Below the pieces are notes generated by a model that had not been told where the DNA came from, ran no database searches, and saw only the letters and a program-made list of their open reading frames with translations. DNA of 64,000 bases, from positions 306,001-370,000 of the forward strand of contig NC_087377.1 of NCBI RefSeq assembly GCF_963675165.1, given 5' to 3'. The position numbers were made by a program, and so were the translations under genes. Positions within the stretch are counted from its first letter, which is position 1; each line of letters begins with the position of its first letter. Source of the DNA: Halichondria panicea (lineage: Eukaryota > Porifera > Demospongiae > Suberitida > Halichondriidae). This document shows positions 2,439 through 15,735 of this stretch, one piece after another.

Positions 2439-3072
2439 TTACTGTGAAGCTAGCTTGGTTAGTTTAGACTCCATCTGTTGGGCAATGTCTCCACGACTAA
2501 TGACAGGAGACTTGAGTGCATGGATGAGTGCTCCTAGTGTGGGGGCGGGGGTGGATCCTGTCAACCATTGCTCCAGTAGTTTAGTGAAACAGTCATCACA
2601 CTCATTCGGACAGTCCCTCTTGATGGCCTGTGTGTGTGTGTGTGTGGGTGTGTGTGTGTGGGTGTGTGTGTGTGTGGGTGGGTGTACATGTGAACTACTA
2701 ATTTCACTACTACAGCTATAGAGTCACTGACACCACAGGCATGCACACAGAGGATTATAGGAATGAGGATAATTATTGCTATAGGCTAATAATAATAAAT
2801 GGGTTTGCACATGCAGGCTAATTATGACAATGAGTGCAGTACTGCTTGCTGGCACATTCCTTAACTGATGATGCCTGACTGTTGTATGAGCACAGGGCTA
2901 TTAGTACACAGTCATCTACTGCTATACAGTGTTCAGTACACACACAGCAGAGCACTCACATCTAGTGTCCCCTCATTGACACCCAACTGCTCTCCCAGAG
3001 GACGCCATGTCCCCCTCACCTCCCAGGCAGCTGTCCTCACTACCCTCAAATGATGATCCACACTCAGTCCCT
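2439..3072 (-). CDS. Gene A exons 11-12: death domain 2 and stop
   Basis: Exon 11 (2960-3072) carries [20 protein letters not shown] and [12 protein letters not shown]. Exon 12 (2439-2627) carries [39 protein letters not shown] and ends LASQ-stop at 2439-2441. Together they form a complete death domain. The intron between them holds a TG microsatellite right next to the acceptor (2630-2690). Gene D holds the same two exons at 51389-51501 and 50859-51047. Confidence 0.82.
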
Positions 3073-15000: not shown

Positions 15001-15735
15001 AACTTCACATACACAACGACTACTTACCAGTGCTACAACTACTACATCGCAAATAATTATTATACTACGCGAAATTACTGACACAATTGATATTGCTACA
15101 CAGTACATGTATATAATTCAGATACCATAATGATATGGAGAAACAATTACAATACACAAATAATTATAATGACTACTTACCAGTGCTACACCCGACCTCC
15201 TTCAAGTACTGCACCACCTCTTTATGACCTCCCCAGCATGCATGGTGAAGTGGAGTCCAGTTGGTCGCCCCATCACCTTTATCAGTACGAGCTCCATGAG
15301 TAACAAGTGTCTTCACAATCTCAAGGTAGCCCTTCCAGCAAGCAAAGTGTAATGGAGGCGCCGCCAACTCATCACTCCAGTAGAGCTGGTGGTTGGGGTC
15401 TGCCCCCTGTCCCAACAGGGACCTAACTTTGGTGACGTCATTATTGACTACAGCCCGCAATAAGTCCCTGGCTAGCTTCTTTTGAGCACTGTACAAAATA
15501 GATGGTTGGGGGGTCAGTCATACAGAGAATTACTTGATATGTGTATATAGTTTATACAAGTGACACCATGCACATATCCAGCTGTCACTTTGCTGTACAG
15601 TGTTCCACCTCTGATCATAGCCTGCTCTGACTCTACTAATGGAATGAGCCTCCCTCCATGCAATCACAAGGTGCTACCATGAGTAGTAATTATAGTCTAC
15701 ATGTTCACTCACTCTGAATCTTGTTCAGTAGCCAT
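2439..15735 (-). CDS. Gene A: ankyrin-Roc-COR-Ig-death-death protein (ROCO family), one frameshift
   Basis: Twelve exons join with matching phases: 15713-15735, 15181-15488, 14298-14399, 13944-14051, 11324-11392, 4492-7147, 4047-4275, 3835-3956, 3382-3537, 3238-3289, 2960-3072, 2439-2627. Predicted length is about 1375 residues if one missing base at 4978-4982 is allowed for. Order of domains: ankyrin repeats (about 10-180), linker (181-203), Roc GTPase (about 220-690, P-loop GPSGLGKT near 237, DIGGQP near 394), COR (about 690-1000), Ig-like module (1090-1165), death domain 1 (1166-1258), linker, death domain 2 (1276-1375). The start ATG at 15735 opens a 23-nt exon (MATEQDS). Known ROCO proteins such as DAPK1 also combine ankyrin, Roc-COR and death domains, but DAPK1 has a kinase at its N-terminus, which this gene lacks. 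Role inferred: GTP-switched cytoplasmic scaffold for death-domain signalling. Splicing is predicted only; the frameshift may be real or an assembly error. Confidence 0.82.
2630..2690. repeat. TG microsatellite at gene A exon 12 acceptor
   Basis: (TG)n with GGG interruptions directly upstream of the acceptor on the coding strand. The gene D copy is at 51050-51120 with a different interruption pattern. Confidence 0.9.
3238..3289 (-). CDS. Gene A exon 10: short linker between death domains
   Basis: A 52-nt exon coding for [17 protein letters not shown], entered in phase 0 and left in phase 1. It joins the two death domains. The copy in gene D (51667-51718) has the same boundaries and differs at the 3' end. 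Confidence 0.7.
3382..3956 (-). CDS. Gene A exons 8-9: death domain 1
   Basis: Exon 8 (3835-3956) codes for the first helices ([20 protein letters not shown]). Exon 9 (3382-3537) codes for the rest ([39 protein letters not shown]). The pattern W..L...L, then M...W, W..L..AL..P.I...D.A matches the death domain, a homotypic protein-interaction fold. The phase 0 junction lies in the middle of the domain, as in gene D, where both exons are nearly identical. Confidence 0.8.
4047..4275 (-). CDS. Gene A exon 7: Ig-like module
   Basis: The exon starts [15 protein letters not shown] and contains [10 protein letters not shown], a Cys in FISCEI and [11 protein letters not shown]. The hydrophobic-x-W pattern followed by a Cys-containing strand resembles an Ig-like fold, and gene B has the clearer version (FHWSKEG ... 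HYQCEVKDAA). No signal peptide or transmembrane segment is seen in gene A, so this would be an intracellular Ig-like domain. Ends at a GTGAGA donor in phase 1. Gene D carries a close copy (52478-52733). Confidence 0.65.
4346..4484. mobile_element. Palindromic MITE in gene A intron 6
   Basis: Ends AACTACACTGTAAAA and TTTTACAGTGTAGTT are exact inverted repeats. Inside, GCACACTAAAACCGTCGCAT pairs with its complement further on, so the whole 139-bp element folds into one long hairpin. It lies between the Roc-COR exon and the Ig-like exon; gene D and gene B lack it. Non-autonomous, no frame. Confidence 0.85.
4492..7147 (-). CDS. Gene A exon 6: Roc GTPase plus COR, frame broken at 4978-4982
   Basis: Large exon from a TTTACAG acceptor to a GTAAGT donor. 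Roc motifs: P-loop [10 protein letters not shown], switch motif DIGGQP, and a G4-like GTFKDEL where gene B has GTHVDKL (LRRK2 has a THLD motif here). A Ser/Thr-rich 8-residue repeat is inserted after the G4 region (5908-6213). COR follows: [40 protein letters not shown]. After [12 protein letters not shown] the conserved continuation ([17 protein letters not shown]) lies in another frame. The exon is 2656 nt where the phases of its neighbours require 2657. One extra base in the C run would restore agreement with gene B. Gene B has an intron after the Trp of WYL; gene A does not. Confidence 0.85.
5908..6213 (-). repeat. In-frame 24-bp repeat coding a Ser/Thr-rich 8-residue unit
   Basis: About a dozen copies of a 24-bp unit code for variants of SDSTTASK or SDGTTASE within the Roc part of gene A. 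The period is a multiple of three, so copy-number change keeps the frame. Gene B has no such insertion at the equivalent place. The tract is likely disordered and rich in possible phosphorylation sites. On the plus strand it gives Ala/Gly- or Leu/Val-rich open frames, which are shadows. Confidence 0.9.
7515..7930. mobile_element. Possible foldback element in gene A intron 5
   Basis: Imperfect inverted repeats: ATGTGACGTCAT near 7522 with ATGACGTCAT near 7901; AAATACGGCG near 7593 with CGCCGTATTT near 7868; CCTTGATGGGAAG near 7671 with CTTCCCATCAAGG near 7788. The arms are spaced consistently with one old foldback. No target duplication recognised. Confidence 0.5.
8275..8485. repeat. 72-bp minisatellite, short array
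   Basis: About three units built on GAGAGCATGACTGCAAGCAG. It lies in intron 5 of gene A. The equivalent in the gene B region (62312-63157) has about twelve units, so the array changed size after duplication. Confidence 0.9.
8753..9489. mobile_element. TIR element, 0.73 kb, non-autonomous
   Basis: Ends ACCGTACCCTCGCGAAAATA and its complement TATTTTCGCGAGGGTACGGT are inverted repeats, flanked by TA on both sides, as in Tc1/mariner-type insertions. No transposase frame inside. The corresponding place in the duplicated block near 63290 lacks it. Confidence 0.75.
9987..10044. other. Hairpin, 20-bp stem with one mismatch
   Basis: Arms GATGTACTGCTAATACAACT (9987-10006) and AGTTGTAATAGCAGTACATC (10025-10044) pair with one mismatch around an 18-nt loop. 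A second copy at 63654-63709 pairs perfectly. Could be a small inverted-repeat element or a structured RNA; nothing else supports transcription. Confidence 0.7.
10166..10403. repeat. Direct repeat pair
   Basis: Two units starting CACAAC(A/G)GAGGCAGCACTAA and ending ATAGGGAGGTGGGTGGTGCT. The right end of the window (63850-64000) carries the first unit again. Confidence 0.75.
10404..11323. other. Gene A intron 5, distal part
   Basis: AT-rich intron sequence. I see no exon, RNA gene or element here. Confidence 0.5.
11324..11392 (-). CDS. Gene A exon 5: polar linker between ankyrin and Roc
   Basis: A 69-nt exon between a CCTCAG acceptor and a GTGAGT donor, phase 1 on both sides, encodes [19 protein letters not shown] and flanking residues. 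It is Ser/Thr/Asp-rich and unlikely to fold. It is assigned to gene A because its phase matches exon 4 and the Roc exon; there is no homology support, so the assignment is weaker than for the domain exons. Confidence 0.55.
11865..12246. repeat. CA microsatellite, about 380 bp
   Basis: (CA)n with CCCA interruptions, in intron 4 of gene A. It keeps several frames open on both strands (TH and CV repeats), none of which is a gene. Confidence 0.95.
12900..13044. repeat. CA microsatellite with C runs
   Basis: (CA)n interrupted by two runs of 9-13 C. It follows a copy of the local direct repeat described at 13078-14783. Confidence 0.95.
13078..14783. repeat. Three direct repeats of about 150-190 bp in gene A introns
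   Basis: Units at about 13078-13262, 13738-13934 and 14620-14783 share GGGGTCTACAAAAC or its variant, TTGTACCACAACCA, and GGTATGGGATTTCTA; a partial unit lies at 14508-14590. They interleave with ankyrin exons 3 and 4. This suggests local tandem duplication of intron sequence, perhaps together with ankyrin exons. Confidence 0.7.
13457..13577. repeat. CA microsatellite, third block
   Basis: (CA)n with CCCACC interruptions. It is preceded by GAAACTCTTACTTGCACACC, a repeat of the sequence before the first block (11680-11864 matches 13290-13456), so the microsatellite and its flank were duplicated together. Confidence 0.95.
13944..15735 (-). CDS. Gene A exons 1-4: start and ankyrin-repeat region
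   Basis: Exon 1 (15713-15735) encodes MATEQDS and stops at a GTGAGT donor. Exon 2 (15181-15488) has the ankyrin signatures [16 protein letters not shown] and [16 protein letters not shown]. Exon 3 (14298-14399) has [20 protein letters not shown]. Exon 4 (13944-14051) has [20 protein letters not shown]. These are canonical TPLHxA...G.....V..L ankyrin repeats, about one per exon after exon 2, and they normally bind protein partners. All junctions from exon 2 to exon 6 are phase 1, so exons 3, 4 and 5 could be added or lost without breaking the frame. Exon 5 follows 2.5 kb downstream. Confidence 0.85.

Follow-up and report, generated by a model that had tools for sequence, protein, structure and literature searches.

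The 64,000-nucleotide window analysed here lies on contig NC_087377.1 of the sponge Halichondria panicea (positions 306,001 to 370,000 of the forward strand). Positions 15735-2439 on its minus strand encode a predicted protein with ankyrin repeats, a Roc GTPase, a COR region, an Ig-like module and two Death domains. Judged from its sequence, this gene is one copy of an amplified Roco family with candidate exchangeable N-termini. Its main ankyrin exon varies strongly between copies, mostly at codons that correspond to predicted ligand-contact positions.

Domain organization of the gene at 15735-2439

Rebuilt from its splice sites, the gene yields a protein of 1343 amino acids through the in-phase joining of twelve blocks. 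An earlier note on this DNA counted these blocks as twelve exons; the corrected structure consists of eleven exons and one frame break. Exon 1 (15713-15735) is a predicted exon and the weakest of the model; it provides the start codon and the sequence MATEQDS, and its GT donor matches exon 2 in phase. Exon 2 (15181-15488) encodes the ankyrin N-cap and two repeats recognized by Pfam Ank, and contains the hypervariable codons at 15469-15233. Exon 3 (14298-14399) adds a further ankyrin repeat, and exon 4 (13944-14051) encodes the final repeat, which ends in KPSTPEP before a phase-1 donor. The Roc GTPase, with an internal SDSTTASK minisatellite, and the following COR-A are encoded by exon 5 (4974-7147), in which the G1 (GPSGLGKT), G3 (DIGGQ) and G4 (GTFKD) motifs can be read by eye. 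The Roc-COR coding block continues at 4492-4947 beyond the frame break (4948-4976). It is followed by the Ig-like module exon (4047-4275), the first Death domain (3382-3956; exons 3956-3835 and 3537-3382), which is conserved in relatives, a short linker exon (3238-3289) placed by splice sites and phase, and the second Death domain with the stop codon (2439-3072; exons 3072-2960 and 2627-2439). The intron between COR and Ig contains a near-perfect inverted repeat at ~4465-4354 on the minus strand, a fold-back element by eye.

The ankyrin-Roc-COR-Ig-Death-Death order described in the earlier note is real. It rests on Pfam for the ankyrin and Death domains and on relatives for Roc, COR and Ig. 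A profile search of the joined protein, suggested in the same note as a check, matched the ankyrin repeats (PF12796, E 2.2e-30) and Death (PF00531, E 2e-9). Scored singly against PF00531, the second Death domain (E 7.2e-7) is stronger than the first (E 0.002). For Roc, the match of this copy alone is weak (E 0.058), and Pfam gave no match to COR-A or for the Ig module in this copy. Among seven family members, Roc (PF08477) reaches a best E of 2.2e-4, with E <=0.1 in five, and COR-A is matched in one (E 0.035); the neighbouring family member in the window, described below, matches COR-A at E 0.0087. Nine further COR-A matches from a genome-wide search (E 2.4e-5 to 6.3e-4) overlap the Roc exons of the neighbour's relatives. 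COR directly after Roc is thus seen through the relatives and not through the 15735-2439 copy itself. Homologous Ig exons match Pfam Ig at E 1.2e-5, and the Ig exon of the neighbour (58780-58478) matches PF00047 above the curated cut-off. The order Roc-COR, Ig, Death, Death is seen again downstream of many related Roc exons. A search of solved structures with the single sequence found nothing significant, and a PDB search with the seven-member profile gave non-significant matches, the Roc of LRRK2 among them at E 0.37-0.7. Pfam listed no NACHT, NB-ARC or LRR family for ten pieces of the window or the seven aligned members, so the defining domains of NLRs were not found.

The frame break replaces a 26-nucleotide intron (4973-4948) of the earlier model. 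A motif search for the site caught 22 distinct copies, and the 21 copies other than 15735-2439 all stay in frame; in the relative L011, the Roc-COR block is a single open reading frame (ORF) of 993 amino acids. (Loci elsewhere in the genome are given L numbers and contigs C numbers.) Because the 21 other copies read through, the 15735-2439 copy is, as its letters stand, either frame-broken or wrongly assembled at this point, and copies intact at the break site exist.

Linkage of the ankyrin and Roc exons

In the 15735-2439 copy, the last ankyrin exon and the Roc exon are 6.8 kb apart, and the earlier note had named an end of transcription between them (13944 to 7147) as the sign of two separate genes. 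Such a split is unlikely, because the corresponding introns are short in relatives and the two exons are linked on the same strand. In two diverged copies, L040 and L039, the introns are both phase-1 and measure 171 and 613 bp, respectively, as counted from their sequences. Of 85 ankyrin exon copies, 38 are followed on the same strand by a Roc exon no more than 12 kb away, compared with 3/85 for a Roc exon upstream on the same strand and 0/85 for one downstream on the opposite strand. The 85 copies come from 87 rows with E <=4.4e-23, less two (on C2 and C8) interrupted by in-frame stops; three C1 rows containing a single stop were retained, and weaker and generic ankyrin rows were excluded. 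On contig C1, 39 of the 46 Roc exons pair with an ankyrin exon at most 25 kb away. The ankyrin-Roc pairs are divided between 22 Roc exons of the type found in the 15735-2439 gene (A-like) and 21 of the type found in the neighbour (C-like). Ankyrin and Roc exons thus probably belong to one gene.

Two ankyrin copies for which the two Roc queries found no partner, L119 and L121, were read downstream. Both show a diverged Roco-like block with a P-loop (GMAGTGKTS), DSGGQ and GTHKD by eye, which matches Pfam Roc only at E 0.026. An array of ankyrin exons at C1 ~2.52-2.65 Mb (plus strand), in which the two queries likewise found no Roc, may serve another chassis.

An amplified family with candidate exchangeable heads

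The 131-Mb genome contains at least 117 distinct Roc exons, of which at least 57 are A-like and at least 60 are C-like, resembling the neighbour's exon 61548-60325. The total is a lower bound; overlaps between the two query lists were removed by eye and then checked, and none of the 117 exons lies less than 2.5 kb from another. Six-frame searches of the genome gave at least 148 Death-domain and at least 60 COR-A matches, which indicates a broad genomic expansion of Death and Roco domains.

The region upstream of the Roc exon differs between family members. At six loci on contig C3 (L011, L029, L031, L036, L037 and L038), a Death-type exon lies upstream where ankyrin exons would be expected; these exons are 94-98% alike to that of L011 and match PF00531 at 7.7e-4. 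At L050 on C6, a PH domain of the SOS1/NGEF type, recognized in ORFs joined by eye (PF22697, 6.2e-7), lies immediately upstream of a family Roc exon. Death and PH may therefore be alternative upstream modules of family Roc exons and are candidate heads. The Roc domain itself also varies. The minisatellite-coded SDSTTASK tract (6206-5900 on the minus strand in this copy) follows G4 and is present in relatives, and the segment containing it has a copy-specific length of 61 to 287 amino acids in 14 sequences.

Hypervariability of the ankyrin surface

Most codons of exon 2 show little or no variation among 21 distinct copies, and twelve carry 6-10 residues each. These are codons 7, 10, 11, 14, 43, 48, 51, 52, 74, 75, 77 and 85 of the aligned stretch, and the residues found there are often Trp, Arg, Glu, Ser or Tyr; codon 82 carries four residues. 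In repeat numbering, the variable codons occupy positions 5, 10, 13 and 14 of one repeat and positions 2, 3, 5, 10 and 13 of the next, in addition to the cap helix. Designers of designed ankyrin repeat proteins (DARPins) randomise repeat positions 2, 3, 5, 13 and 14. When a codon with at least five residues among the 21 copies is counted as variable, seven of the eight variable codons in the two full repeats fall on the eight positions expected to contact ligand (hypergeometric P 1.6e-7). These positions follow DARPin numbering and were chosen once the variability was known; P uses positions 2, 3, 5, 13 and 14 without position 10. The ankyrin binding interface has been described as the inner helices together with the β-hairpin/loop region (PMC4986451).

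Clade 3, with 17 copies, and clade 2, in which 17 of the 20 are distinct, vary at the same places. The ten contact sites carry distinct residue combinations in 20 of 21, 17 of 17 and 17 of 20 copies in the three sets. Among the few copies compared, exons 3 and 4 also tend to vary at similar repeat positions. Two copies far apart on C1, L109 and L110, have identical exons 3 and 4 in the stretch displayed and agree in the variable residues listed for exon 2, which may reflect either recent duplication or conversion.

Selection and mutation at the contact codons

The ankyrin exon differs from Roc, COR and Ig in its ratio of nonsynonymous to synonymous differences per site (pN/pS). In matched genes (n = 7-8), pN/pS is 1.82 for the ankyrin exon, and the nonsynonymous distance (dN) exceeds the synonymous distance (dS) in 27 of 28 pairs. 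In the same genes, pN/pS is 0.39 for Roc (dN>dS in 1/21 pairs), 0.33 for COR (3/28) and 0.49 for Ig (0/21), and these three domains range from 0.24 to 0.49 across comparisons, a sign of constraint in the copies measured. One comparison set excluded copies with less than 90% coverage, less than 60% identity or stops, as well as identical copies. Within the two repeats of clade 1, pN/pS is 2.15 for the contact codons and 0.77 for the remainder.

Codon usage provides a control for mutation. Pairs of copies differ in residue at 75-78% of contact-codon comparisons, and among pairs that share a contact residue, 4, 3 and 9% in the three sets use different codons for it, compared with 3.1, 3.6 and 10.9% for the framework. 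Synonymous codon switching is thus about as frequent as in the framework, which gives no support to a mutation hot spot confined to the contact codons and points to residue replacement driven by selection.

The kinase fragment upstream of the ankyrin exons

A fragment of a kinase C-lobe of the AAK1/BMP2K type is located at 17221-16488 on the same strand, upstream of the ankyrin exons. Fragments of this type precede 43 of 75 ankyrin copies, at a median distance of 2.2 kb; the count covers the 75 of the 85 copies that are on C1 and 111 of 117 kinase-fragment rows, six rows on C8 and C15 being excluded. No HRD motif was found near the fragment, the sole HRD of the window being at 52829 (minus strand), and the ankyrin copy on C8 has its kinase-fragment matches on the opposite strand. 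A kinase-ankyrin-Roc gene was dropped as a model on these grounds, together with the 2.2-kb distance and the AAK1/BMP2K likeness. The description of the gene in the earlier note as lacking a kinase holds in that the model contains no DAPK-type kinase, and the C-lobe fragment gives no sign of being spliced to the gene. The HRD at 52829 belongs to a lone catalytic-loop exon (ARLHHRTKPxIHRDLK), 36 kb from the C-lobe fragment, that adjoins a second Ig-Death-Death block; similar lone exons occur at L044, L046 and L119.

Comparison with known systems

A literature search that covered few subscription papers found no description of an ankyrin-Roc-COR-Ig-Death family or of hypervariability at the contact sites of animal ankyrin repeats. 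DARPins resemble the present family in having a constant scaffold with variation at repeat positions 2, 3, 5, 13 and 14, and differ from it in that the sponge repeats are natural and genome-encoded, with position 10 and the cap helix variable as well. DAPK1, a member of Roco group 3 and a cell-death regulator (PMC6337361, which also sets out the Roco groups), shares ankyrin repeats, Roc-COR and a C-terminal Death domain in the order found here. Its N-terminal CaM kinase was not found in the sponge gene, which in turn has an added Ig module, two Death domains and a P-loop motif and belongs to a large diversified family. The likeness to DAPK1 pointed out in the earlier note therefore extends to the domain order, with no DAPK-type kinase, and overlooks the family of at least 117 Roc exons, the candidate exchangeable N-termini and the hypervariable ankyrin surface.

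One parallel among Roco proteins is with the LRR-ROCO candidate immune receptors of brown algae (PMC11378527). These are likewise expanded, with 9-47 genes per species, and use a repeat domain as sensor, with positively selected sites on the concave face of the LRRs. They differ in their simple LRR-ROCO architecture and in diversifying through LRR exon shuffling, whereas the sponge family has an ankyrin scaffold that differs residue by residue between gene copies. Trichoplax has at least 17 ROCO genes with LRR, TPR, CARD and death domains, and ANK-ROCO proteins occur in oomycetes and Gonium (PMC11378527). For these other ROCO fusions, the available part of that paper gives no Ig module, tandem expansion or ankyrin contact-site hypervariability. 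Further Roco fusions are known from a sea anemone and Aplysia (PMC5094078, PMC9334734).

Fungal NLR-like proteins with ANK, TPR or WD repeats (PMC4986451) also combine a nucleotide-binding switch with positive selection on the ankyrin concave face. Their switch is NACHT or NB-ARC, and their repeats are highly identical internally and vary in number between alleles; the sponge proteins instead have a Roco switch and a short array that varies between gene copies. In another sponge, Amphimedon, lineage-specific expansions of Death-fold proteins, many with ankyrin repeats, are built on a TRADD-N core and not on Roc-COR-Ig-Death, and the available part of the report describes no contact-position hypervariability (PMC8195603). 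Sponges also have NLRs (PMC12909245), and sponge transcripts with ankyrin and Death domains respond to microbial cues (PMC8242945, PMC6208332).

Proposed function and alternative explanations

The earlier note proposed a sensing or cell-death role, and for the family as a whole such a role appears to be the best-supported reading. The family is probably a germline repertoire of cytosolic Roco-type recognition receptors that signal through Death domains, of which the 15735-2439 gene would be a frame-broken copy. The ankyrin surface of each copy would bind its own protein ligand, of microbial or other non-self origin. This would free the GTPase/COR dimer switch, as in other Roco proteins, and the paired Death domains could then cluster and recruit death-fold adaptors, with inflammation or cell death as the defensive output. 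Breadth of recognition would come from the number and variety of copies, encoded in the germline and not generated somatically. A more specific proposal, to which we give slightly less than an even chance, is that the genome holds an animal 'natural DARPin' repertoire, anticipatory and germline-encoded, in which dozens of ankyrin domains (85 exon copies found, 58 examined) are mounted on at least two Roco-GTPase/Death chassis for microbial sensing or allorecognition. As part of that proposal, and just as tentatively, it could represent a third route to many specificities beside the antibody-type and LRR-type routes, wired directly to cell death. If so, animals would have a concrete candidate family for specific recognition in which a single chain combines binding residues, switch and output, and whose variable positions are legible straight from the genome. 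How antibody-less animals separate self from non-self and symbiont from pathogen would become testable, as would what Roco GTPases beyond the LRRK/DAPK branch do.

Several observations weigh against this reading. All Roc and COR scores are under the Pfam curated cut-offs. The two queries found no Roc exon for 42 of the 85 ankyrin copies, and at L121 (C1:560905) SH3 exons (3.4e-7 and 3.9e-6) lie between the ankyrin exons and the Roco-like block. The 15735-2439 copy is itself frame-broken, and L040 seems to shift frame in COR as well. On the side of selection, the bootstrap limits of exon-wide pN/pS come near 1 in clade 1 (1.01-2.68) and clade 3 (0.98-2.43), and the whole-exon value of clade 2 is 0.78 (0.57-1.06); the exon average alone is for these reasons not decisive. 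In a minimum-step count, the nonsynonymous excess at contact codons falls short of significance in clade 1 (binomial 0.44) and clade 2 (0.36) and is weak in clade 3 (0.026). The contrast between contact and framework codons reaches significance only in clade 2 (Fisher 0.0016), the other two clades giving 0.084 and 0.11. Close similarity among the Death exons leaves their pN/pS intervals wide (0.40, 0.16-1.08; 0.75, 0.27-2.96), so constraint on them is not demonstrable. Taken with the codon control and the matched genes, which speak for it, and with clade 2 and the step count, which are mixed, the data point to diversifying selection at the contact positions.

The alternatives explain parts of this evidence. 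Targeted mutation or templated gene conversion could generate the contact-codon diversity, with selection secondary. The minimum-step count in clade 1 would suit this, since the contact codons show 2.31 nonsynonymous and 2.07 synonymous changes per site against 0.18 and 0.28, and their third base is often G; saturation could account for the raised synonymous count, however, copies that share a contact residue share its codon no less often than at framework sites, and at contact codons position 3 is the one that differs least. We regard this explanation as improbable. It is also unlikely, if slightly less so, that a selfish or transposon-rich segment was amplified and that most copies are decaying passengers whose ankyrin variation is drift after duplication. 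The break in the 15735-2439 copy, the AAK1-type fragment that accompanies 43 of the 75 C1 copies and introns that look to the eye to be filled with repeated sequence fit such a history, which is opposed by the low pN/pS of Roc, COR and Ig (0.24-0.49), by the presence of an in-match stop in only 5 of 117 Roc exons (frame breaks not counted) and by the clustering of variation at contact positions rather than exon-wide.

Two further alternatives concern the gene as a unit. A small ankyrin gene and an adjoining Roco-Ig-Death gene might have been duplicated together, as the 6.8-kb gap, the 42 partnerless ankyrin copies and the one place with intervening SH3 exons would allow. Two diverged copies have phase-matched introns of 171 and 613 bp, hardly long enough to hold the end of one gene and the promoter of another, and in the 15735-2439 copy the stop after the last ankyrin exon is beyond the donor site, within sequence that looks by eye like a nearby repeat; we give this arrangement very little credence. 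Alternatively, the gene could be a DAPK1-like regulator of cell death in development, with no role in recognition. This is suggested by the Ank-Roc-COR-Death order, which recalls that regulator (PMC6337361), and is doubtful in view of the missing CaMK-type kinase and of more than 100 related Roc exons with a diversified ankyrin face, which would be unexpected for a housekeeping regulator. The recognition repertoire remains the reading that we favour.

Neighbouring genes and other features of the window

The local cluster of GTPase and death-domain genes proposed in the earlier note is borne out by three features on the minus strand. A neighbouring family member at 58478-61659 contains Roc (61548-60325), COR from 59945 and Ig (58780-58478), and an ankyrin exon copy is located 8.3 kb upstream of it, beyond the window. 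Three Death-type exons follow in a row at 53927-57181, each open to its own stop codon; two match Pfam Death (0.023 and 0.001) and 57181-56759 is unmatched. They may be either separate adaptor genes or alternative last exons. The second Ig-Death-Death 3' block (50862-52733) resembles that of the 15735-2439 gene, with likenesses of 67% in Ig and 91% and 87% in the Death exons. Elsewhere in the window, the regions 20000-23000 and 38780-43300 consist of short repeats readable in several frames, and 30300-33200 on the plus strand contains ORFs judged by eye to be transposase-like, the start being C2H2-like.

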